64,000 bases of DNA, from NCBI RefSeq assembly GCF_003595175.1, contig NZ_CP032419.1, positions 3,782,001 to 3,846,000 of the forward strand, given 5' to 3'. The DNA comes from Pseudomonas cavernae (GTDB lineage: Bacteria > Pseudomonadota > Gammaproteobacteria > Pseudomonadales > Pseudomonadaceae). The notes beneath the pieces were generated by a model, which saw only the letters and a list, made by a program, of their open reading frames with translations, did not search any database and had not been told where the DNA came from. Every line of letters begins with the position of its first letter. Positions within the stretch are counted from its first letter, which is position 1. The position numbers and the translations under genes are program-made. Below are positions 5,398 to 44,650 of the stretch, piece by piece.

Positions 5398-6273
5398 TCA
5401 GAACACCGGCATGGGCAGTTTGCCCAGGCGCTCGGCACCGCCGTTTTTGTCTTGGTAAGCCAGCTCGCCGGGGGCGACGAATTCGTCGACATAGGCCTGC
5501 CAGCCGCCCTCTTCGCCGGCACTGGCGACATACCGCTTGAAGTGGCTCATGTCCCAGCCGTAGTCGGACGGGCACGAAGTCGGGTGCGCACCGAACGGCG
5601 CATGCACCACACCGCTCACCAGGTAACGCTCGAAGGTGTTGCCGCGGGCCTGCTCGGCGGTCAGCTCGAGGCGTTCCTCAAGTTTTTCGCAGGACACGAA
5701 GCACTGCTGCGCGGCGCGGGCGAACAGGTGATCGAAATACGGGTCCGGGCCGGTCACCAGGGTGTTGCCCAGGCGGTCGGCGACGTTGACGTGGAGGAAG
5801 GCCACGTCCAGGTTCAGCGCCGGCATGGCCAGCAGCACTTCGCCGTCGTCGTAGGGCGACTGAATGGTCTTCAGCTCGGGATTGAGGCGGGTCACGTCGG
5901 TGGCCAGGCCACAGCGGGTCGGCAGGAACGGCAGGCGCATGCCGGCGGCGCGCAGGCCCCACTGGAACATGCCCTCGTCGACCTCCAGCAGCTCCAGCTC
6001 ACCGGCCTCGCGGGCCTTGCGGTAATAGGGTTCGAGCGGGATGGCGTCGAGCGTGGCGAAGCCGAACACCAGTTTCTTGACCTTGCCGGCGGCACACAGC
6101 ATGCCGACTTCCGGGCCGCCATAGGCGACCACGGTCAGGTCCTTGACGCTGGAACGCAGGATCTCGCGGACAATGGCCATCGGCTTGCGCCGCGGGCCCC
6201 AGCCGCCGAAGCCGATGGTCATGCCATCGCGCAGTTGGGCGACGGCATCGGCCGCCGTCAGTTGCTTATTCAT
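5398..6273 (-). CDS. ipdA: Steroid ring-C CoA hydrolase, alpha subunit (IpdA)
   Basis: 291 residues from an ATG at 6273 preceded by AAGGAG. Class I CoA-transferase alpha-subunit fold: DGMTIGFGGWGPRRKPMA near 20-37, TVVAYGGPEVGML near 51-63, EVDEGMFQWGLRAAGMRLPF, and DPYFDHLFARAAQ. These match mycobacterial IpdA closely. With IpdB it hydrolyses the final carbocycle of the steroid nucleus (ring C), giving a linear CoA ester for beta-oxidation. It begins 11 bp after hsaC and is followed by ipdB, so A/B-ring and C/D-ring functions share one transcript here. Cytoplasmic. Confidence 0.93.
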   Translation of the reverse strand: MNKQLTAADAVAQLRDGMTIGFGGWGPRRKPMAIVREILRSSVKDLTVVAYGGPEVGMLCAAGKVKKLVFGFATLDAIPLEPYYRKAREAGELELLEVDEGMFQWGLRAAGMRLPFLPTRCGLATDVTRLNPELKTIQSPYDDGEVLLAMPALNLDVAFLHVNVADRLGNTLVTGPDPYFDHLFARAAQQCFVSCEKLEERLELTAEQARGNTFERYLVSGVVHAPFGAHPTSCPSDYGWDMSHFKRYVASAGEEGGWQAYVDEFVAPGELAYQDKNGGAERLGKLPMPVF

Positions 6274-7295: not shown

Positions 7296-7450
7296 GTCGT
7301 AGGGCGGGTGCAACCCGCGTGGCGCCCCTACCGGCGGGTTGCACCCGCCCTACCATGCCGATGTTCGGGTCGGCACCGCTGGTGGGTTACGCCGCTACGC
7401 GGCTAACCCACCCTACAAAAGCGGTGCGCAACACTTAACGGGTACATAGC
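7296..7450. repeat. Palindromic intergenic repeats (copy 1)
   Basis: 7299-7318 and 7334-7353 form a perfect 20-bp inverted repeat (GTAGGGCGGGTGCAACCCGC and its complement) with a 15-base loop. A second hairpin follows at 7381-7412 (GGTGGGTTA arms with GCCGC/GCGGC inner arms), then a tail ending AACACTTAACGGGTACATAGC. The second hairpin and tail recur at 40087-40226 and twice in 42814-43206. It separates the divergent hsaC and acyl-CoA dehydrogenase units. Confidence 0.8.
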
Positions 7451-7467
7451 CTTTTTCAACAGCCTGC

Positions 7468-7484
7468 TAGTCCGTTTCAATGAT
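7468..7484 (+). promoter_or_regulatory. Weak copy of the steroid-regulon element upstream of acyl-CoA dehydrogenase
   Basis: TAGTCCGTTTCAATGAT fits TAGTCT-N4-GGACGAT with four mismatches (one in TAGTCT, three in GGACGAT), in the direction of the downstream gene and 64 bp from its ATG. Weaker than the other copies; distance and orientation are the main support. Confidence 0.3.
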
Positions 7485-7548
7485 TCGACCCGGTTGCAGG
7501 TATTCCAAACTGCACGCACAACCAGACCGAGCCAAAGACGGGTGCCCC

Positions 7549-8721
7549 ATGGAGTTTGCTTTCAACGACGAACAACGGCTGATCCAGGAGACGGCCGCAC
7601 GCTTTCTCGCCGAAGTTTCCGACTCCGCCGCCGTGCGCGCGGCCATGGTCAGCGCACCGGGTTACGAACCTGCCGTGTGGGCGCGGATCGCCGAGGAGAT
7701 GTATTGGCCGGCCCTGCACATCCCCGAGCAGTACGGCGGAATGGGGCTGGGCCTCGTCGAGCTGAGCATCCTGCTGGAGCAAATGGGCCGCTACCTGCTC
7801 TGCGCGCCCTTCTATGCCACCGCCTGCCTGGCCACCCCGGCGCTGCTGCTCAGCGACAACCAACAACTGAAAGAACAGTGGCTGCCCGCCATCGCCGCCG
7901 GCACCAGCACCGCCACCCTGGCCTTCGCTGGCAATAACAGCTGGGATGCCGACAGCGTGCAGGCCGAGGTGCAGCCATGCGCCAATGGCTACCGCCTGAA
8001 CGGCGAGTACCTGCAGGTGGTCGACGGCGCCCAGGCCGAGCTGCTGATCGTCGCCGCCCGCAGCCCAGGCACGAGTGGCGAGGCCGGCATCAGCCTGTTC
8101 GCCCTGCCCGCCAGCACCCCTGGCGTGGCCCGCCACGCCCTGCCGACCCTGGACCAGACCCGGCGCCTCGCGCGCATCGAATTGCACAACGTCGAGCTGA
8201 GCGCCGCCGACCTGCTCGGCGCGTTCGGCGCAAGCGGGCCACTGCTGCGCGAGGTGCTGCAGATCGCCTGCATCGGCCTGGCCGCCGAGCAGGTCGGCGG
8301 CGCCCAGCAGGCGCTGGACCTGACCCTCGCCTACACCCGCGAGCGCCAGCAGTTCGGCCGCGCCATCGCCAGCTTCCAGGCGGTCAAACACCGCTGCGCC
8401 GACCTGATGCTGGAGCTCGAATGCGCCCGTTCGGCGGCCTATTACGCCGCCTGCGTGGCCCAGGAACGCCTCGACCCGCAGGGCGATGCGGCCGTGCGCA
8501 GCGAACTGGCGGTCGCCGCGGCGACGGCGAAGATCCATGCCTCGGAAGCCTTCTTCCACGGCGCCGCAGACGCCATCCAGCTGCATGGCGGCGTTGGCTT
8601 CACCTGGGAATACGACCCGCACCTGTATTTCAAACGCGCCCGCGCCAGCGAACAGTTCCTCGGCGCCCCGGCCGTGCACCGCGAGCGCCTGGCCGTCCAG
8701 ATCCTAGGAGAACAGCTATGA
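7549..8721 (+). CDS. Acyl-CoA dehydrogenase, probable non-catalytic small partner
   Basis: 390 residues from the ATG at 7549 (MEFAFNDEQRLIQETAARFL), the family's usual start; the upstream in-frame start at 7480 would add a sequence unlike the family. Acyl-CoA dehydrogenase fold with RERQQFGRAIASFQAVKH and a C-terminal HGGVGFTWEYDPHLYFKRA motif. The segment GLAAEQVGG replaces the G/H-ER motif carrying the catalytic Glu in the partner genes, so this may be the structural subunit of a heterotetramer. Its stop overlaps the start of the next dehydrogenase by four bases, supporting complex formation. Substrate unknown; probably a steroid side-chain or ring CoA ester. Confidence 0.88.
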   Translation: MEFAFNDEQRLIQETAARFLAEVSDSAAVRAAMVSAPGYEPAVWARIAEEMYWPALHIPEQYGGMGLGLVELSILLEQMGRYLLCAPFYATACLATPALLLSDNQQLKEQWLPAIAAGTSTATLAFAGNNSWDADSVQAEVQPCANGYRLNGEYLQVVDGAQAELLIVAARSPGTSGEAGISLFALPASTPGVARHALPTLDQTRRLARIELHNVELSAADLLGAFGASGPLLREVLQIACIGLAAEQVGGAQQALDLTLAYTRERQQFGRAIASFQAVKHRCADLMLELECARSAAYYAACVAQERLDPQGDAAVRSELAVAAATAKIHASEAFFHGAADAIQLHGGVGFTWEYDPHLYFKRARASEQFLGAPAVHRERLAVQILGEQL

Positions 8722-9911
8722 AAATCGGCTTCAGCGCGCAAGACGAGCAGTTCCGCAAGGAAATCGCCGACTGGATGAGCACCCATCTGCGCGGCGCCTT
8801 CGAGCCCCTGCGCTTTCGCGGCGGGCCCGGCGACGAACACATGTTCCCCAGCGAACGCAAAGCCTGGGAGCGCGAACTGGCCGCCGGCGGCTGGACCGGC
8901 GTCGGCTTGGCGCCCGAGCACGGCGGCCGTGGCCTGAGCATCAGCCAACAGGTGATCTTCAACGAGGAATACGCCCGCGCCGGCGGCCCCGGACGCATGG
9001 GCCACATCGGCGAAGGCCTGGTCGCCCCGACCCTGGCCGCGTTCGGCACCCCCGCCCAGCAGCAACGCTTCCTGCCCGGCATCCTCGCCGGCACGCAGTT
9101 CTGGTGCCAGGGCTACTCAGAACCCGGCGCCGGCTCCGACCTGGCCAACGTCAAGACCCGCGCGGCACTCAACGAGGCGGGCGATAGCTGGCTGATCAGC
9201 GGCCAGAAAGTCTGGACCTCCATGGCCCACGAGTCGGACTGGTGCTTCGTCCTCGCCCGTACCGAGCCCGGCAGCGTCGGCCATCACGGCCTGTCGTTTC
9301 TGCTGGTGCCGATGGCGCAGGCCAACATCAGCGTGCAGCCGATCCAGCAACTGACCGGCACCGCGGAATTCAACGAGGTGTTCTTCGACCAGGCGCAAAC
9401 CGCGGCGGACAACATGATCGGCCAGCCCGGCGACGGCTGGAAAATCGCCATGGCCCTGCTCGGCTTCGAGCGCGGCGTATCGACCCTCGGCCAGCAGATG
9501 CAGTTCCAGAACGAGCTGGAAGAGATCATCCGCATCGCCAAAAGCAACGGCGCCGCCCAGGACCCGATCCTGCGCCAGCGCCTGGCCCAGGCCTGGGCCG
9601 GCCTCAAAGTGCTGCGCTACAACTCGTTGCGCATGCTCTCCGGCAGCCAGGACGGCAGCCTGCGCCGCGAAGCGATGATCTACAAACTGGCCTGGTCCAC
9701 CTGGCACGCCGAGCTCGGCAAACTGGCCATGGACGTGCTCGGCGCCGCCGGCGAAATCCTCGAAGGCGCACACTACGAGCTGTCCCGCCTGCAGTCGCTG
9801 TTTCTCTTCACCCGCGCCGACACCATTTACGGCGGCAGCAACGAGATCCAGCGCAACATCATCGCCGAGCGCGCCCTCGGCATGCCCCGCGAACCCAGGG
9901 CACGGGCCTGA
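8718..9911 (+). CDS. Acyl-CoA dehydrogenase, catalytic large partner
   Basis: 397 residues; the ATG overlaps the preceding stop (ATGA) and has AGGAG upstream. Acyl-CoA dehydrogenase motifs: YSEPGAGSDLAN near 133-144, SGQKVWTSMAHESD near 161-174, GFERG with Glu251 at the isovaleryl-CoA-dehydrogenase-type catalytic position, and IYGGSNEIQRNIIAER at the C-terminus. With the upstream small subunit it probably forms an alpha2beta2 FAD enzyme that desaturates a steroid-derived CoA thioester. A strong terminator follows at 9934, so the pair is a two-gene unit. Cytoplasmic. Confidence 0.9.
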   Translation: MKIGFSAQDEQFRKEIADWMSTHLRGAFEPLRFRGGPGDEHMFPSERKAWERELAAGGWTGVGLAPEHGGRGLSISQQVIFNEEYARAGGPGRMGHIGEGLVAPTLAAFGTPAQQQRFLPGILAGTQFWCQGYSEPGAGSDLANVKTRAALNEAGDSWLISGQKVWTSMAHESDWCFVLARTEPGSVGHHGLSFLLVPMAQANISVQPIQQLTGTAEFNEVFFDQAQTAADNMIGQPGDGWKIAMALLGFERGVSTLGQQMQFQNELEEIIRIAKSNGAAQDPILRQRLAQAWAGLKVLRYNSLRMLSGSQDGSLRREAMIYKLAWSTWHAELGKLAMDVLGAAGEILEGAHYELSRLQSLFLFTRADTIYGGSNEIQRNIIAERALGMPREPRARA

Positions 9912-9933
9912 ACGCCCTTTGCCCGCTCCTCTT

Positions 9934-9961
9934 GACCGGCCTCTGGCCGGTCTTTTTTTTC
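9934..9961 (+). terminator. Rho-independent terminator after the dehydrogenase pair
   Basis: GACCGGCC (9934-9941), a three-base loop and GGCCGGTC (9945-9952), followed by a run of T residues. Strong intrinsic terminator; the next gene has its own ribosome-binding site (TTGGAG) 14 bp further on. Confidence 0.9.
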
Positions 9962-9974
9962 TTGGAGATTCACC

Positions 9975-10388
9975 ATGACCACTACGTTAGATGACCGCCT
10001 GGCGATCCAGGACCTGCTCTACCGCTATGCCCGCGCCGCCGACGACAAGGACACGGCCGCCTACCGCGCCTGCTTCTCCAGCAACGGTGTCGCCGTTAAC
10101 TGGGCGGATTTCGAGGTAAACGACGGCGCGACCATCATCGACTCGCTCAGCCAGTACCAGTGGACCATGCACAAGGTGTTCAACCATGCCTTCGAGGTCG
10201 AGGGCGATCGTGCCCGGGGCTACACCTACTGCCTGGCGACCCACGTAGCTGACGAGCAAGGGCAGCGCCGCAAGGAGGACTGGCACGTTCGCTACGACGA
10301 CGAACTGCTGCGCGAAAACGGCCAATGGCGCTTCCTGCGGCGCGAAGTGCAGGTCGGCCTGATCGAAAAAGTCGACCTGCCGGACTGA
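9975..10388 (+). CDS. NTF2/SnoaL-like small protein
   Basis: 137 residues, ATG preceded by CTTGGAGATTCACC. The N-terminal DDRLAIQDLLYRYARAADDKD and C-terminal ENGQWRFLRREVQVG are typical of SnoaL-like NTF2-fold proteins, the fold of ketosteroid isomerase. The canonical ketosteroid-isomerase Tyr/Asp pair cannot be assigned by eye, so catalysis is not claimed. It sits alone between the terminator of the dehydrogenase pair and the mobile element and may be read by readthrough. Three further NTF2-like genes lie at 21117, 22970 and 35442. Plausible roles are isomerisation or dehydration of a steroid intermediate. Confidence 0.75.
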   Translation: MTTTLDDRLAIQDLLYRYARAADDKDTAAYRACFSSNGVAVNWADFEVNDGATIIDSLSQYQWTMHKVFNHAFEVEGDRARGYTYCLATHVADEQGQRRKEDWHVRYDDELLRENGQWRFLRREVQVGLIEKVDLPD

Positions 10389-10460
10389 CAGACCGGCAAC
10401 CACGCCCCCGAGGTTTCGCAAGAACGAAGACAGCCCGCATCACGAAGCGAAACCCCACAA

Positions 10461-10489
10461 GGGCGGATAGCGCGGCGCGTTATCCGCCC
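10461..10489. repeat. Palindrome GGGCGGATA...TATCCGCCC
   Basis: Nine-base inverted repeat (10461-10469 and 10481-10489) 72 bp after the NTF2-like gene. It belongs to the intergenic palindromes common in this genome and may also end transcription, though no T-run follows. Confidence 0.6.
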
Positions 10490-10595
10490 TACCGCTCGCC
10501 ATCCAGCGAAACTTCCGCACACTCCGCAACGCCCCTGTCAGCAGGCCGAACGGAGTCGTTACGGAAGGGGCCAGGCGCGCAGCCACGAGCGTGCG

Positions 10596-10684
10596 TAATT
10601 GCATCGCATTTGACCGCCCAATTGCATTGCCACTGACCAGTCAACTTCATTCGTGTTGACCATCCTCTTGCATTCGGCTTGACC
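10596..10684. repeat. Left-end array of four 20-bp direct repeats, 23-bp period
   Basis: Units at 10596-10615, 10619-10638, 10642-10661 and 10665-10684, for example CAATTGCATTGCCACTGACC and CTCTTGCATTCGGCTTGACC. Each is close to cAATTGCATtcg...TTGACC, with 3-bp spacers. The mirror array is at 12984-13048. Confidence 0.8.
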
Positions 10685-10729
10685 AATACACGCCGCAGTG
10701 ACGACCGGCAGCACGCGGCCCATAACGGA

Positions 10730-10849
10730 CACTAACGCCCAAGGTAAGCGGCGGCGGAGGGAGCGCAACGAGTGGAGGGCACCAACCAGGGCCATGAAAA
10801 TGGCGAAGCCATGGCCCTGGCTGGTGTCCGCTTGACCGATAAGTTAGAC
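10730..10849 (-). other. attC-like recombination site (integron cassette)
   Basis: 120 bp with AAC/GTT cores at the ends: GTTAGAC at 10843-10849 and CACTAAC at 10730-10736. Outer arms GGTAAGCGG (10743) and CCGCTTGACC (10828) pair except for one extra base, the extrahelical-base feature of attC sites. The centre is a 17-bp palindrome, CACCAACCAGGGCCATG against 10810-10826 with one mismatch. Read on the minus strand it follows the nuclease-helicase gene, as expected for a gene cassette. Confidence 0.6.
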
Positions 10850-11015
10850 GCTGAATTTTGAGCCGGGTGCTGCATTTGCCGTGTGTGACCGCGCCCTGGT
10901 TTTTGACTTGGCGTTGTTTCTGTATGTGATTCCGCACGTTGCGTACACTTAATCAGCCTCTGGTTCTGAGACGATTGGTGTGCTGGCCGCTCATCTGTAA
11001 AAGTCTGCTAAATGG

Positions 11016-12491
11016 TTATTGCAAGATAGCGATGCATCTATTTAGCAATTCTTCATTGTCTATGATCACTAGATTCAATTTCTTTCTGGATCTTGTGATG
11101 TTTTGGAATAGCATCTTTGGCGGATCGTAGTACGCCCCACCTTTATAAATTAAATCGCCATTGCCAGCATAGGAGAAGAACTTATCAATCGTTATCGCTA
11201 CGCCGTCAAATTCTTGTCCGATTACTTGGTGCGAAGTTCTGCTGGATGCTTCTGAGTATTTCTCATGATGCTCTTTATTGTATTGTGATGGTGTGAATCT
11301 CAAAATTTCCCATTTGCTATCATCAAGCGCATCGAGGTAACTTTTTGCGTCTTCGGTGATGTTGAAATAATTTATTTCAATATTGCCATTGCTTGATATG
11401 GGCAGAGATCTTTTATTGTTGAATAGCATTTTTATGAATGCGGCGATTTCTTTGTTTGTTCTTATCTTCTCCGATAGTTTGTATCGGGTGATTGGGCTAA
11501 TTGAGCCAATCTTCGCGCTAACATCTCTCTTTTCTTCCCAGTTTGCTAGCGTTTGAAGTTTGTCGTGTGAGAAGATGCAGCAGCATTTTGCTAGCCTTGC
11601 TTTCTCAATGATGGTGTCTAGTTGGCTTGGGTAGATTCGTTGAGCCTCATCGATGATAACTAAATCATAATTTGCAAGATCGTGGTTACTGTAGTTTTTT
11701 ATTGGGGTAATCGCCCAGCCATTTTTTATCAACTCTGCGTGACCGTCATTTAGTTGTCCGCAGTGAATGATGAGCGGCTTTCTTTTACTTTCTATAAGAT
11801 GCTTTGCGATGTCGTATGTTAATAGGGTCTTTCCTGTTCCCGCGCTACCTATGATTGAAATGAATTTCGCTGCTTTGGGTGGTTTCAGGGAATCAATGAT
11901 TTGATTCTTCACATCTTCTTGCTGGTGCGTTAAAAAATATTCACCAGCCAAGAATTTTTTCGTAGAGTTGAAAGGTGAAACTAGATAATCCGATGGGCTG
12001 AATAGTGCATCCGGAACCTCCGTATCCTCTATATCCTGGTTGGTGAGTAATTCCGATAAATGGTCAAATTTGGTTTTTTCTAGTTGATCATCATCTCGCA
12101 GGAAGTGCAGCTCTTGGGATTCGGACACAAAGGTGAAGGCGTAAACTTTCCTCCCAATGAAACTCAAGTAGTATTTGTTTCGTATTAGTTGTTTCTTAAT
12201 TTTTTCTTCCGAGCAGCTATTCTTGAGCTCTATGTTTATGATGCATTTTCGGCCAAAGCGAAGCAAATCAAACTCTTTGCCTATCTGTGGAATTTTGTAA
12301 CCCACATAAAACCTGTCGAAGGTTCCTATGCTGCACCCAATGTCGCTCAGGGCCTTGGTTAGACTTCTTAGATCTTCAATTTCCGCGCCTTTGATTCCTA
12401 TGCCATAGTGCCTCAAGAACCCCTTGAATCCTTCTTCTTTCAATGAGTCTTTTGCTTGCAGTAGCGATTGGATGTTTACTCGTTTCAACAT
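11016..12491 (-). CDS. PD-(D/E)XK nuclease-SF1 helicase fusion (DUF2075-like); candidate defence protein
   Basis: 491 residues, AT-rich against its GC-rich neighbours. Residues 60-110 carry a nuclease-like signature: EFD with Asp75, then IELK with Glu88 and Lys90, followed by a Lys-rich helix. A superfamily 1 helicase/ATPase core follows: Walker A GSAGTGKT (215-222), Walker B LVIIDEAQ (277-284), a SHDKLQ motif III-like segment (308-313), IGQEFDGV (424-431) and NITRSRKKL (464-472). Single-gene nuclease-helicase fusions are known in phage defence (for example Nhi), and integron cassettes often carry defence genes. Here it is a lone gene between attC-like sites, about 70 bp from the upstream one. 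No clear Shine-Dalgarno is visible. Function inferred, not shown. Confidence 0.8.
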   Translation of the reverse strand: MLKRVNIQSLLQAKDSLKEEGFKGFLRHYGIGIKGAEIEDLRSLTKALSDIGCSIGTFDRFYVGYKIPQIGKEFDLLRFGRKCIINIELKNSCSEEKIKKQLIRNKYYLSFIGRKVYAFTFVSESQELHFLRDDDQLEKTKFDHLSELLTNQDIEDTEVPDALFSPSDYLVSPFNSTKKFLAGEYFLTHQQEDVKNQIIDSLKPPKAAKFISIIGSAGTGKTLLTYDIAKHLIESKRKPLIIHCGQLNDGHAELIKNGWAITPIKNYSNHDLANYDLVIIDEAQRIYPSQLDTIIEKARLAKCCCIFSHDKLQTLANWEEKRDVSAKIGSISPITRYKLSEKIRTNKEIAAFIKMLFNNKRSLPISSNGNIEINYFNITEDAKSYLDALDDSKWEILRFTPSQYNKEHHEKYSEASSRTSHQVIGQEFDGVAITIDKFFSYAGNGDLIYKGGAYYDPPKMLFQNITRSRKKLNLVIIDNEELLNRCIAILQ

Positions 12492-12563
12492 TTCTGTTTG
12501 TTTGTTCTTTTGAAGGTGGATCGATTAATCCGAGTGGATGGGCAAGTGGATCAATTAACATTG

Positions 12564-12640
12564 GCCTAACGATTAGGCTAACGGGCAGGCTTTTGCTTTC
12601 CAGCGAACGAAGTGAGCGAAAGTTGAGCGCATTGTTAGAT
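12564..12640 (-). other. Second attC-like site (weaker)
   Basis: GCCTAAC at 12564-12570 and GTTAGAT at 12634-12640 fit the RYYYAAC and GTTRRRY core boxes of attC sites. Between them CTTTC...GAAAG arms give a partial hairpin. It lies about 70 bp upstream of the nuclease-helicase start. The fold is less convincing than the site at 10730. Confidence 0.4.
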
Positions 12641-12983
12641 GGAACCTCCACGCTGGATGTATTGGCCAAGAGCGATACTAGCGACGAAAGCGATAAAGCA
12701 CATTACGCCGCCGCGTTGAATGCGACACTGGCTTGCGGGTAGAAGCTTTGGCGACAGGAACCACCATGGGCTTAATGATGCTGGCAGCCTGCGAGATGGA
12801 GTGTTTTCGCGCTCAACCATAGCAGCAAGGTAGCCTGGATAGGAATTGGTGGAAAACGCTGCGCGGTTTTCCACCCTACTCGAGCTCGAGGGCGGTGTAG
12901 GGTGGACAACGTTGACTTGTCCACCAGCTTTGCGATCGGCCGCTCTTGGCCGCTTTCTGCCGCTCACCCCTCCGGCGCGCACT

Positions 12984-13048
12984 GGTTAAACCTCATGCAA
13001 GAGGATGGTCAGTAGGAATGCAATTGGGTGGTCGAGTCAGTGCAATTA
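12984..13048. repeat. Right-end array of three 20-bp repeats, inverted relative to the left array
   Basis: Units at 12984-13003, 13007-13026 and 13030-13048 (the last 19 bp) with 3-bp spacers. On the minus strand they read, for example, CAATTGCATTCCTACTGACC, close to the left-end unit at 10619. The spacer ATC before the CTCTTGCAT unit is identical at both ends. Confidence 0.8.
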
Positions 13049-13183
13049 CGCCACGAGCGACATGAATGTCACGACGACTGCATGGATGCAGGGAAGCCAA
13101 AACCGAGAGCGTCGGTCAGGCCATGGGTGGCCTGATCGACAGAGGACGCCGGGCTCGTGCCCCGGCCCCGGCGCACTCAGGGC

Positions 13184-13948
13184 CTACAAGCCGCTGGCAT
13201 AGAAATGCGGGTTGTCCAGACCGTCCTTGCCATAGCGCAGCGCATCGCCGGCCAGGGTGCGGATCTGTCCACCGGCCGCGGCCAGCACCGCATGCCCGGC
13301 GGCGATATCCCACTCCATGGTGCGCCCCAGGCGCGGATAGAGATCCGCCTCGCCGGCGGCGACCAGACAGATCTTCAGCGATGAGCCGGCGCTTTTCAGC
13401 GAGCGTACCTTGCGCCCGTCGAGGAATTTATCCAGCGCTTCGGCATCGCCATGGGAGCGGCTGGCGACCACGTCCAGGCCCTCTTCCGACACCGCCCGGC
13501 AGTGGATGGCCTGGCGCTGCCCGGCCTGTTCGATAAAGGCTCCGCAACCACGGGCACCGGCGAACAGACGCTCCAGCGCGGGGGCCAGAACCACGCCGAG
13601 CACCGGTTCGCCGTTATCGATCAGGGCGATATTGACGGTGAACTCGCCATTGCGATTGATGAATTCCTTGGTGCCGTCCAGCGGGTCCACCAGCCAGAAG
13701 CGCTGACCCACCTCGGGTACCTGACCGGCGGCGGCGGCCTCTTCGGAGATCACCGGGATCTCCGGCGTGCGCGCCGCCAAGGCTTGCAGAATCAAGGCCT
13801 CGGCACGTTCGTCGGCCTCGGTCACCGGGGACGCATCCTCCTTGCCGCGCACCTCGAAATCCGAACGGTACACCGCCAACACCAGCTCGCCCGCTGCGCG
13901 AGTAATGCCGATGACGTCTTCGAGCAGAACAGCCATTGGCTCGTTCAT
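13184..13948 (-). CDS. cysQ: 3'(2'),5'-bisphosphate nucleotidase (CysQ)
   Basis: 254 residues, ATG with CAGGAGAGACCC upstream. Inositol-monophosphatase superfamily motifs: EEAAA for the first metal site, [16 protein letters not shown] for the metal-binding loop, and [15 protein letters not shown] at the C-terminus. CysQ hydrolyses 3'-phosphoadenosine 5'-phosphate (PAP), the by-product of sulfotransferases and PAPS reductase. Most Pseudomonas carry cysQ far from cysD/cysN, so its position facing cysD-cysNC and near a sulfotransferase operon suggests a dedicated PAP-recycling role. It is transcribed divergently from the helix-turn-helix/cysD unit. Cytoplasmic, Mg-dependent. Confidence 0.93.
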
Positions 13949-14071
13949 GGGTCTCTCCTGTTTTTTTGTTCGAGTAATCCATACGGCCTATGCGCCGTTT
14001 TCCGGATAGGAGAACAGTACCGACATCCACGGCATCGCCAATCAGCAAATGGATGTTTAACAGGAGCTCCT

Positions 14072-15085
14072 GTGTCCCACGGCAAGCAGTTATCCATTCC
14101 ACAGATCAACACGCTACGCCTGCGCGCCGTGCAATTGCGCATCGCCGGCAATACGCTCAAGGCGATCACCCAGGACACCGGCCTCTCACCGCCGACCATC
14201 ATCGCGGCCTACAAGGCCTGGCAAAGTGGCGGCTGGAATGCCGTCCCGGTGCGCGAGCGCGGGCGCAAACAAGGCGAAGGCCGCAGCCTCTCGGCGCAGC
14301 AAGAGCAGCACATTTACCAGTTGCTGGTCAGCTCGCCGCCGGAGCGGCACCAGTTGCCCTTCCTGCTCTGGCAGCTGGAGGCCATGCAAGCGCTGGTCAA
14401 GCGCCTGCACGATATCGACCTGCCGGAGCGCACCGCCGCCCATTACCTGCAACGCTGGCAGCTGAATGCCGAGCGCCCGGCCAAGCGCGTCGCCAATGCC
14501 GCGCCGGCGGTGCAGCGCTGGTACCGCGGCACCTACCAACAGATCCTCGCTCAGGCCCGCACGGAGAACGGCGAGATCCACTGGATCGACGACTTCGGCG
14601 CGCGCAACGCGCAGGGCAAGCTCAGTTACGGAGTGCTACGCGCGGTCAGCAACCGCGGCAAGGTGCTCTGGCTCCCTTACGAAGGCGGATTGCGCGCCCC
14701 CCACCTGGAAGAGTTCTTCGAGCGCCTGCAACGTTCGGCCGAACGCAAGGTGTTCGCCCTGCTCTCGGGCATGCACTGGCAGCGCGCCGCCACGTTCAGC
14801 ACCTGGGCCGGGGAACGCGCGGAGCGCCTGCAGCTGTTCCACCTGCCCGAAGCCAACGAGATGCTCAGCGGTGCCCGCGAGCTGGCGACGCACATCCGTC
14901 AACAGGCCGTCCGCGCCAGCAATGACGATGCGCTCGACAGCGCGCCCGATGCCGCCCCCAGCCTTCCCAGCAACCCCATGCTGCACATGTTGCGCCTGAT
15001 GTTAAAACATCAACTCGCGCATAAATCCGAGCGACAGGGGTTGTACGTTGAGAAACGACAACAACAAAGAGCGGAGAAAAAATCT
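14072..15085 (+). CDS. Domesticated IS630-type transposase-like protein, in frame with cysD and lacking its own stop
   Basis: A GTG at 14072 with AGGAG five bases upstream begins 338 codons that run in frame into cysD with no stop. N-terminal helix-turn-helix: residues 10-50 ([18 protein letters not shown]... and [14 protein letters not shown]), then a winged-helix-like linker. The C-terminal half has an RNase-H-like pattern of IS630 transposases: WIDDFG with Asp173/174, [11 protein letters not shown] where Ser232 stands in place of the second catalytic Asp, and a LPEANEML end motif. The altered residue suggests a domesticated DNA-binding protein, perhaps a regulator of the cys genes. Either CysD is also started internally at 15086 or a 637-residue fusion is made. 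Confidence 0.75.
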
Positions 15086-43267: not shown

Positions 43268-44650
43268 TTAACGCCCGTTCGCCCGCGCCGCATCGGCGGT
43301 GTACATATCCGGGGTGAACTTGCCTTCGTTGAGAATCGGGCCTTTCTTCGATTCGTTGCTCATGCCGTAGCCGGTGTACTGGCCCGAGTTGAGGTCCATG
43401 AAGAACTGCGAACCGGCCTGCCAGGCGCTCATGTCCGGGTGGTAGTAGTAGTTGATCATGGCGTGTTTCCACAGTTCGCCACGGGTGTCGTAGTTGTCCG
43501 ACATGACCGCATGCCAGGTGTCCTCGTCGAGAAACAGCACGCGTTTGCCATAGACGTGGCGATAGCTTTCTTTCAGATCGGCCTCCACGACCCAGACACG
43601 ACGCAGCTCATAACGCATGAACTCGGGGTTGGGGTGGTTTGGCGTGAGCATGTCGGCATACTTGATATCAGCCGAGTTAGGCTTGAAGGCATTGGCCGGG
43701 ATATAGATTTCACGCTTGCCGATCAGTTTCCAGTTGTAGCGCTCCGGCGCGCCGTTGAACAAACGGTCCTCATCGATGGTCATGGTGCCGTTGGTGCCGA
43801 TCATCGGCTGGTCGTAACCGTAACCGGGCAACTGGCGCACACGACGGGTCGAGGGGTTGTAGCTCCAGGCCTGACGAGCGCTGGCCTGGTAGTTGTAGGG
43901 TTCGTGCGCGATGCTCATGGTGCCGTTGTCGCGAGCGGGCTTCAAGGTGGTGTTCCAGCTCATGGCGCTGATGCCGCCTTCGGTCTTCGGCTCGACAGTC
44001 GGCGAGTTGGCCTGGGCCAAGTTACGCGCAAAGGCGCGCCCCCAACCGATGCTGCCGGTGGGCAATACCGATGCCAGATCGGTGACCTTTTCTTCGGTCC
44101 AGGCACGCGCCGGCAGTAGGTTGTTCCACAGCGCTTCGATGCCGCTTTTCGGGATCGGGAACGCAATCTGGCCGATCCCCTCAAAACCCATGCCATCATC
44201 GACCAGCTTGGCACTCTGCGCATTTTTCAGCACCCGGTCACAGACATAGTCCGGGTAGCGGAAATCGCGGTGGCCTGGGTAGACGTTCATCTTGTAGGTG
44301 GTCGGGTAACGCTTGAACAGCGCCTTCTGGCCTTCGGTCAGCTGAGCTTCGTACTGGCTCATGTTCTGCGCGGTGATCACCAGGATCGGCTTCTCGGCGG
44401 CGTATGGGTCAACCGGATGACTACCGGAAAACTTCACGTGGTTCCAGCCCGGCACCTCGCCCAGATACTTGCCGGTGTATTCGGGGATGGTGCCCTCGGC
44501 ATTACCGGCTTTCTCGGCGCCGACACAGGTCAGCTCCTTGCCGAGCTTTGCCGCTTCGTCAGGCGACACTTGCGCCAATGCACTGCCTGCCAAGCCAACA
44601 TTGACAACCATTGCAGTTACTAGCATTACGCCTGTTGTTCTTGTTTTCAT
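43268..44650 (-). CDS. DUF1329 periplasmic/outer-membrane protein
   Basis: 460 residues from ATG 44650 with AAGGAGGCAGTAC upstream. Signal peptide: MKTR, hydrophobic stretch VMLVTAMVVNVGLAGSALA, likely cleaved after ALA. The body contains DUF1329 features: EYTGKYLGEVPGWNHV, FAYPDYVCD-like RYPDYVCDRVL, FPIPKSGIEALWNNLL, and a late GKRVLFLDEDTWHAVMSDNYD. DUF1329 proteins have a LolB-like fold and accompany DUF1302 proteins and carriers; a role in moving hydrophobic substrates across the envelope is inferred. Monocistronic with its own promoter element and terminator. Confidence 0.9.
   Translation of the reverse strand: MKTRTTGVMLVTAMVVNVGLAGSALAQVSPDEAAKLGKELTCVGAEKAGNAEGTIPEYTGKYLGEVPGWNHVKFSGSHPVDPYAAEKPILVITAQNMSQYEAQLTEGQKALFKRYPTTYKMNVYPGHRDFRYPDYVCDRVLKNAQSAKLVDDGMGFEGIGQIAFPIPKSGIEALWNNLLPARAWTEEKVTDLASVLPTGSIGWGRAFARNLAQANSPTVEPKTEGGISAMSWNTTLKPARDNGTMSIAHEPYNYQASARQAWSYNPSTRRVRQLPGYGYDQPMIGTNGTMTIDEDRLFNGAPERYNWKLIGKREIYIPANAFKPNSADIKYADMLTPNHPNPEFMRYELRRVWVVEADLKESYRHVYGKRVLFLDEDTWHAVMSDNYDTRGELWKHAMINYYYHPDMSAWQAGSQFFMDLNSGQYTGYGMSNESKKGPILNEGKFTPDMYTADAARANGR

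Follow-up and report, generated by a model that had tools for sequence, protein, structure and literature searches.

Which kind of mobile DNA carries inverted repeat arrays at both ends and no transposase gene between them? This question is raised by a 2461-bp element at positions 10592–13052 of the window, the 64,000-bp stretch of the Pseudomonas cavernae genome analyzed here. The initial annotation had described a 9-bp direct repeat, an 11-bp inverted end, and inverted arrays of four units on the left and three on the right, with no transposase inside; all of this was confirmed. The 11-bp end, GCGTAATTGCA, is common to both termini. Eleven of the 12 terminal bases agree between the left 12-mer, TGCGTAATTGCA (10592–10603, plus strand), and the right 12-mer, GGCGTAATTGCA (13052–13041, minus strand, read inward), for which the consensus starts with T. 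When the termini were checked for TG...CA, the left end showed TG and the right end, read inward, GG.

The arrays consist of units of ~23 bp. On the left, four predicted IstA-binding-like units (10597–10687, plus strand) start at 10597, 10620, 10643, and 10666, and here the strict 23-bp period reported earlier is exact. The right array (12981–13047, minus strand) deviates from it: units at 12981–13002 and 13004–13025 are joined by a third, found by eye at 13026–13047, which has diverged and is one base shorter, giving a period of 23 by its GACC box and of 22 by its AATTGCA box. Using a second unit weight matrix, which like an earlier one was built partly from the element's own units, we obtained five matches with a score of at least 14 in the 64-kb window, all inside the arrays; 30 mononucleotide-shuffled versions of the window together gave six. 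This matrix leaves two of the three right-hand units under that threshold, and the earlier one gave a single extra match outside the arrays, at 44057. Inward of the left array lies a conserved subterminal stretch (ACACGCCGCAGTGACGACCGGCAGC..., 10688–10728, plus strand) that is common to other carriers and to G325, the genome of a related species with the same insertion, the same ends, and a different cargo. A right subterminal stretch (12824–12980, no strand assigned) is likewise common to G325. An Rfam search of positions 9900–14000 gave no match. The flank of the element holds further short repeats.

The cargo gene (11016–12491, minus strand) encodes a 491-aa protein with full-length PADLOC matches to AbiO (E = 5.9e-193, positions 2–468 of 468) and Nhi (E = 1.7e-189, positions 2–470 of 470) and a Schlafen-group-3 helicase domain (Pfam SLFN-g3_helicase). 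It is predicted to be an anti-phage gene of the AbiO/Nhi type, and judging from its sequence the product would have a defense activity. Two attC-like sites, both on the minus strand, flank the gene. The 3' site (10730–10849; R'' GTCTAAC, R' GTTAGTG) folds better as DNA than its shuffles (z = −3.87), and its R' is one base off the strict GTTRRRY; the 5' site (12564–12640; R'' ATCTAAC, R' GTTAGGC) folds no better than shuffles. They were the only sites in the 64-kb window detected by a custom, relaxed finder that required R''/R' and L''/L' pairing and an extrahelical base, features by which the gene qualifies as an integron-type cassette under this relaxed search. The finder recovered four sites at the host's own integron as a positive control and none in 14.1 kb and 11.0 kb elsewhere. 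It also gave no attC at C1:1113745-1113860 of the same genome, a stretch that blastn aligns to the first site at 74%.

The cargo might thus have been inserted as a cassette by an integron integrase into a pre-existing carrier, a route that would complement the explanation favored below and that we consider doubtful. The two flanking sites speak for it, as do the integron integrase of the host and the position of the left limit of the G325-shared part (10728), which adjoins the attC-like site at 10730. However, on the right that part stops (at 12824) away from any attC-like site, no attC was seen by inspection in the G325 cargo, and the four attC of the host's own integron, 75–79 bp long, do not resemble the window sites. 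Integron gene cassettes that lie outside integrons are called CALIN-like. The element resembles them in having a gene between attC-like sites and no integron integrase; it differs in that transposon ends and a target duplication surround the cassette.

Arrays of the same type bound IS21-family transposons of Pseudomonas whose products are IstA, IstB, and an uncharacterized third protein of ~346 aa, here called ORF3. They adjoin istB in three of 30 fetched IstB loci (L070–L072), and the gene order is array-istB-istA-ORF3-array in L076 and L077. IstA and IstB of the array-bearing relatives match the NCBIfam models NF033546 and NF038214, and their IstA is ~41–42% identical to the ISPpu7/IS1491 type. 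ORF3 had no match in Pfam, NCBIfam, or PADLOC and no sequence match in the PDB; its predicted structure would be mainly helical (mean pLDDT 89.3, pTM 0.89). In an ungapped comparison with five array ends per side, the left end of the window element matched best the istB-side array of a P. frederiksbergensis plasmid element (L087; 81% identity over 74 bp), and the right end the cargo-side end of the pD4A-46 IS21-like transposon (76% over 74 bp); the other eight values were 31–66%. For the left end, the best of 2000 shuffles reached 0.43–0.47. It counts against the explanation favored below that L087, the best match to the left end, begins with TTCG and that its duplication is not demonstrated. 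One P. frederiksbergensis plasmid carries both this istA-istB relative and a transposase-less carrier (L028). Three plasmid copies of the transposons have target duplications of 5–6 bp, namely GGTTCC for the one on pD4A-46 (122543–136183) and GCTTAG and GTTTT for copies B and A on pPma4326F.

According to PMC10122671, IS21 has repeats 23 bp apart, terminal CA, and 5-bp repeats. The window element shares the first trait, direct repeats spaced 23 bp within its ends (22–23 for the outermost right unit). What ties the element to the IS21 family (IS21, IS5376, ISPpu7, IS1491) is that IstA/IstB relatives occur with the same arrays. The Pseudomonas relatives differ from this family in having up to eight units per array, some with 19-bp spacing, and the third gene ORF3; in those on pD4A-46 and pPma4326F, cargo extends for kilobases past an internal array. 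The 19-bp spacing occurs on the istB side, with eight units at this spacing in L075 and 23-bp followed by 19-bp spacing in L076, L077, and L083. The istB-side array is internal in pD4A-46 and pPma4326F, and its role as a boundary is putative in L076, L077, and L083.

The initial annotation had compared the ends with those of Tn7- or Tn5053-like elements. Tn7 and Tn5053/Tn402 have several transposase-binding sites per end, a partner ATPase, and cargo, and multimeric terminal sites are known in Tn7-, Tn5053-, and Mu-like families in general. PMC10122671 also describes the IS21 transposase as structurally resembling TnsB and MuA. Nevertheless, transposases with window-type ends match the NCBIfam IS21 models, the repeats of IS21 are spaced by 23 bp, and among the annotated genes lying between the arrays of pD4A-46 and pPma4326F none is named as TnsA, TnsC, TniQ, or TniR. 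A derivative of Tn7, Tn5053/Tn402, or another Mu-like DDE transposon is therefore very improbable, the separation being made by transposase family, and the earlier likening to Tn7 or Tn5053 gives way to IS21-family istA-istB transposons bounded by the same arrays.

To see how widely such ends occur, 149 Pseudomonas genomes were screened. A pattern of the terminus plus one unit (at most one mismatch) was found at 70 places, counted by hand, in 49 of these genomes, compared with three matches for the reversed control pattern; a strict three-unit pattern matched nothing in the 149. We fetched 60 of the places. The others comprise two in the P. cavernae genome itself, two with istA and ORF3 (L077 in G037 and L076 in G070:C45), one nested (G141), and five more. 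Two of the 60, L150 and L151 (both G136), hold ORF3 and part of istA, cut by contig ends, and L173 holds an istA relative at 40%. A facing array or right terminus was judged to be present in 25 of the 60; three were dropped since no right terminus could be named (L152, L155, L158), and 22 were tested together with five pairs whose ends were already known when they were added (the window element, L014, L015, L028, L036). An exact in-register duplication of at least 5 bp was present in 16 of these 27 transposase-less pairs and in two of 702 mismatched pairings, with the right termini picked by eye from the sequence (L139 one base short), which may favor repeats. L122, L130, and L036 represent one site, so that the 16 cases amount to 14 independent ones, and the two matches among the mismatched pairings are probably those of L122 with L130. 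Considering only the 22 pairs not seen beforehand, 11 had an exact duplication. The 11 of 27 pairs lacking one, which count against the explanation favored below, comprise eight with a one-mismatch repeat (the control covers exact repeats) and three with none (L159, L162, L171). Inverted arrays at clean insertion boundaries, for which the initial annotation had proposed to look in other genomes, thus exist there. In plasmid Rms139 an array has integrase genes next to it, which led us to consider an origin from strand-biased circularizing elements (SE); this was dropped, as the array is part of a distinct carrier (L124) that has boundaries and a 6-bp duplication of its own.

Could the window element be a chance grouping of common intergenic repeats close to a defense gene gained by horizontal transfer? 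The other short repeats in the flank would suit such a reading, but it is refuted by the counts, that is, the unit matches relative to shuffles, the 70 versus three pattern matches, and the duplications in 16 of 27 versus two of 702 pairings.

At the window element itself, the 9-bp direct repeat CCACGAGCG (10583–10591 and 13051–13059, plus strand) is perfect. Seven of its bases, ACGAGCG (10585–10591 and 13053–13059), adjoin the 12-bp termini, and all nine would do so with termini of 10 bp. The 9-bp duplication proposed earlier therefore stands as a repeat, with 7 bp in register, and these point to a short target duplication. Since comparable elements show 5–6 bp, the outer CC may be a coincidence or an altered terminal base. 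No empty insertion site was found among 398 Pseudomonas genomes, the P. cavernae genome included; both flanks are kept in just one other of them, G325, where the site is occupied. The duplication of the window copy is thus putative.

None of istA, istB, and ORF3 was detected in the window element (tblastn, 1e-8), nor in any of the 27 pairs that could be bounded, to which this statement applies. The host genome yielded no intact cognate istA and no ORF3; it holds a 75-aa IstA fragment at 57%, a match at 25% that belongs to a different IS21 element, and several solo or degenerate arrays. It counts against the explanation favored below that the host has a distant IS21 element with a full-length IstB (C1:2220134-2220841); no such arrays occur at its locus (L052). 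The IstA fragment and the solo or degenerate arrays would fit an IS21-like transposon in decay, deprived of istA, istB, and ORF3 by deletion and immobile ever since it took its present form, as would the diverged outermost right unit and terminal base. Some carriers do look like deletion products, because a 36-aa piece of ORF3 (67%) remains next to the left array of L158 and a 67-aa piece of IstB (82%) close to the array of L166. However, G325 holds other cargo at the same site between the same ends, and clean duplications flank many transposase-less pairs located at different sites, so that in-place deletion would have been needed repeatedly, with new cargo each time. We regard decay as unlikely.

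Lacking istA, istB, and ORF3 in a genome without an intact cognate IstA, the element is therefore a non-autonomous carrier. We conclude, with a probability of roughly 0.88, that it is a non-autonomous mobile insertion cassette (MIC) of an IS21-like transposon family. This conclusion builds on the anatomy of the element, the likeness of its ends to istA-istB elements, the duplications in the family, and the lack of transposase genes in the tested carriers and of an intact cognate istA in this genome, all directly observed. The non-canonical base at the right terminus and a repeat of 7 or 9 bp, longer than the 5–6 bp of comparable elements, count against it. MICs consist of IS ends around passenger genes, MIC231 being an IS4-type example. 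The window element resembles them in its ends of the autonomous-IS21 type, its passenger gene, and its lack of a transposase gene; istA plus istB, which define an autonomous IS21, are present in its same-ended relatives. It belongs to a group that differs from MICs in its large membership, variable cargo, and recurrent defense genes, and the window copy has attC-like sites. MICs have no transposase of their own and can be activated by the transposase of an intact related IS, according to PMC3129680. We found no description of IS21-family MICs or IS21-type carriers in our open-access searches, and the undescribed class considered initially becomes a carrier type not found described for IS21. 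The P. syringae MITEs in PMC3189936 are of other types (possibly IS5, and one of unknown type with ends like the Tn3 family) and do not belong to this family.

Transposition would start with IstA binding to the several units spaced ~23 bp apart at the ends. IstA and the IstB ATPase, perhaps with ORF3, would be supplied in trans by a complete relative, and IstA would pair both ends and insert them at a target whose strands are cut ~5–7 bp apart, yielding the duplication. The AbiO/Nhi-type gene between attC-like sites would be an integron-type cassette caught between two such ends, and cargo may be swapped between fixed ends by recombination. The initial suggestion of a passenger that moves in trans and has multimeric transposase-binding ends is well supported; its movement we infer, and presumably it is now stranded.

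At least ten of the 27 transposase-less pairs contain a PADLOC defense match, including AbiO/Nhi, Avs3, Mokosh, Thoeris ThsB, and a DRT-type reverse transcriptase. A broader proposal, to which we give somewhat less than even odds, is that Pseudomonas harbors a two-part system of IS21-like transposons with ORF3 and many transposase-less carriers with the same multimeric ends. These carriers would serve as interchangeable slots for defense and other genes, filled from several sources including integron cassettes. They would move in trans and be refilled in place when the conserved ends recombine. Defense genes are often seen without a visible route of movement. The end sequence, the duplication, and a candidate cognate transposase family together provide a testable vehicle for single defense genes or operons, and further cargo, uncharacterized genes included, can be sought with the end pattern. 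The finding also draws attention to an IS21 clade with a third, so far unstudied protein and suggests that enclosure in transposon ends may offer integron cassettes a second route of mobility.

The element extends over 2461 bp (10592–13052) and is AT-rich, with a G+C content of 0.458 (0.402 in its cargo gene and 0.64 in the window). It is bounded by a 9-bp direct repeat, CCACGAGCG (10583–10591 and 13051–13059), as originally reported; read in register with the 12-bp termini, it amounts to 7 bp, ACGAGCG. The inverted termini are near-identical (TGCGTAATTGCA and GGCGTAATTGCA), and the inverted arrays comprise four units on the left and three on the right. The units are spaced 23 bp apart, as described in the initial annotation, but the period is not strict, since the outermost right unit is shorter by one base. 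A search of the element confirmed that it contains no transposase gene. Its single cargo gene (11016–12491, minus strand) matched the PADLOC models AbiO (E 5.9e-193) and Nhi (1.7e-189) over their full length, and the protein contains a Schlafen-group-3 helicase domain. The start of the right flank (13060–13092, ACATGAATGTCACGACGACTGCATGGATGCAGG) has five short matches in genome G008 and one in G012; thus, the element lies in or beside a short dispersed repeat. The gene at 13184–13948 (minus strand), which we take to be CysQ-like, has a second related place in the same genome (C1:4622539–4622985).

A search for elements with the same ends, some of them with a transposase, had been suggested, and istA–istB were indeed present between such arrays in loci L076 and L077 and in pD4A-46. 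Both loci show the order array, istB, istA, a third gene of 346 aa (ORF3), array; in L076, IstA matched NCBIfam NF033546 (E 3.1e-74) and IstB NF038214 (1.1e-68). Among 30 fetched Pseudomonas IstB loci, three (L070–L072) had arrays near IstB, and L054 and L064 had single units only. The pD4A-46 transposon (122543–136183, 13.6 kb, duplication GGTTCC) contains ORF3, istA, istB, an internal array, cargo including a restriction endonuclease and a HEPN protein, and a terminal array. pPma4326F harbors two copies of a shorter transposon: copy B (8708 bp) with the duplication GCTTAG, and copy A, with an annotated IS5-family transposase inside, with GTTTT. Over 74 bp, the left end of the window element shares 81% identity with the istB-side array of L087, a relative located on a plasmid of P. 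frederiksbergensis; the right end shares 76% with the cargo-side end of the transposon on pD4A-46. The other eight end pairings reached 31–66%. L087 begins with TTCG, lacks a demonstrated duplication, and shares its plasmid with the transposase-less carrier L028.

According to PMC10122671, IS21 has end repeats 23 bp apart, requires two complete end repeats for integration, terminates in CA, and makes 5-bp repeats. The spacing of the window element is the same, whereas the istB-side arrays of L075, L076, L077, and L083 are partly spaced at 19 bp. In L075, an eight-unit array adjoining istB (7448–7602) has alternating unit types at 19 bp, compared with 23 bp in the outer ends. The likeness to Tn7 or Tn5053 ends proposed earlier did not hold, because relatives with these arrays carry IS21-type IstA and IstB and the spacing is that of IS21. 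Overall, the evidence places the ends with IS21. The nearest known concept for IS21-type carriers is the mobile insertion cassette (PMC3129680); our searches of an open-access library returned no published account of such carriers or of ORF3. ORF3 had no match in Pfam, NCBIfam, or PADLOC, but 53 homologues at E ≤ 1e-3, most of those named being from Pseudomonas, and relatives in 9 of 72,556 plasmid records (seven covering 80% or more of the protein). Its predicted structure is well-defined and mainly helical (mean pLDDT 89.3). That ORF3 acts in end binding, target choice, or regulation is conjecture.

The left end of the window element gave 12 blastn places in its own genome, two being the window's own arrays. 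Further arrays, facing or solo, occur at C1:119381–122863, 775138–776457, and 2968052–2968999, some with a variant unit ending in TGAACACC. A terminal-plus-one-unit pattern (at most one mismatch) had 70 matches, distributed over 49 of 149 Pseudomonas genomes, compared with three matches for the reversed pattern. Among plasmid records, 225 matched a consensus end (114 from Klebsiella and 87 from Pseudomonas), only 12 of them covering 80% or more of it. In the one Klebsiella record opened, pSZP4-9-2-tmexCD, the terminal 12-mer TGCGCAATTGCA and further units adjoin the tmexCD1–toprJ1 efflux cluster (L039, ~5981–6055). On pMPC6-47K (L013, 8000–8410), facing arrays only ~0.4 kb apart resemble a MITE of this end family; inspection of the ends revealed no clear duplication.

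We assembled 27 end pairs, 22 from 60 fetched places and five from elements seen earlier, with L036, L122, and L130 representing one single site. An exact in-register direct repeat, 5 bp or longer, was present in 16 of the 27, compared with 2 of 702 mismatched pairings, and in 11 of 22 when the five pre-seen elements were omitted. Eight further pairs had one mismatch in 5–7 bp, the 702-pairing control referring to exact repeats only, and three had no direct repeat. None of the 27 carriers, a set defined without the gene-bearing places L076, L077, L150, and L151, matched istA, istB, or ORF3 (tblastn, E 1e-8). One carrier with a PDC-S06-type gene is shared by plasmid Rms139 (L044, 5996–8663) and a Pseudomonas genome (L124) at 100% identity over 2668 bp. 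On Rms139, it stands after an integrase–hypothetical–integrase–hypothetical gene set, presumably, from its gene order, a strand-biased circularising element.

The joined flanks matched 12 of 398 Pseudomonas genomes, own genome included, and both flanks were kept only there and in G325. No empty site was thus encountered; the G325 site is occupied, with CCACGAGCG on both sides and different cargo. This cargo is a 278-codon open frame, nuclease-like by eye; translated from its first ATG (269 aa), it had no PADLOC match. The DNA common to both genomes covers window positions 9901–10644, 10675–10728, 12824–13119, and 13179–14100. Three different cargos likewise occupy the L036/L122/L130 site. Such a site is most simply explained by a single insertion whose interior was later exchanged between conserved ends; alternatively, the same site may have been hit independently. 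In several Pseudomonas species (L031, L035, L036, L122, L130), arrays lie near a gene that is integrase-like by eye, beside a dehydrogenase gene, with varying cargo (restriction-like, HEC-06, reverse transcriptase, GT4-conflict); this setting looks like a defence hotspot.

Two attC-like sites flank the cargo gene (12640–12564 and 10849–10730, minus strand). They were the only ones detected in the 64-kb window by a purpose-written, relaxed finder tuned on these very sites, which gave four beside the host's own integron integrase and none in two further regions (14.1 and 11.0 kb). The site at 10730 deviates from strict GTTRRRY, and just one of the pair shows better folding than its shuffles. The host chromosomal integron (G000:C1:1500346–1505029, L198) comprises an integrase (C1:1504088–1505029, E 9.2e-152, above the cut-off of its family) with the four attC sites, 75–79 bp long, next to it. 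Since the window sites are unlike these, the cassette probably came from another integron.

In the 27 carriers, 59 ORFs reach 140 aa or more; 13 of these, spread over 10 elements, matched PADLOC individually at 1e-8. One more is implied by two members matching PDC-S31, one of them read singly, so that at least 14 of 59 match, a minimum because only 28 of the 59 ORFs were read singly and the family results cover the first 25 of 88 families. The matches are AbiO/Nhi, DRT UG5-nitrilase, PDC-S06, MkoA, MkoB, PDC-M38A and B, PDC-S31 (two), Avs3a, Avs3b, PDC-S15, ThsB1, and a weak PbeA, whose bearer, L162, has no duplication. L122 and L141 had no PADLOC match despite their GT4-conflict and HD-CE Pfam domains, which we read as conflict-type. 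The remaining cargo either has no defence character (LysE, globin, lipase, oxidoreductases, GNAT, eCIS core) or is without any match. The 75 neighbouring ORFs gave 21 PADLOC families with one member each, perhaps three to four proteins. Fisher's test of 13/59 against 4/75 yielded p = 0.007; defence enrichment is suggestive only, because the neighbour count is estimated, both ORF sets are mechanical and include unlikely genes, and the elements are non-independent. On P. aeruginosa 2021CK-01161 'plasmid unnamed2' (L041, 1906–6508), a CBASS-like operon (DncV-like nucleotidyltransferase, ThiF, Mov34, SAVED) lies between a family-type end and the contig end, which reads TGCGTAATTGCA inward.

When the genome that carries the window element was searched with IstA of this family, the sole matches were a fragment of 75 aa at 57% and one match at 25%; for IstB, there was a 63-aa fragment at 40%. 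ORF3 had no match there, an empty answer that shows little, as the search had no positive control. A distant IS21 element with full-length IstB (C1:2220134–2220841) has no such arrays at its locus. As no intact cognate IstA or ORF3 was found, the window element is probably stranded for as long as no cognate relative enters. By analogy with IS21, IstA would bind the units and pair both ends, and IstA and IstB together would join them to a target cleaved with a stagger of 5–7 bp. Complete elements would supply IstA, IstB, and ORF3, and carriers would contribute ends and cargo only.
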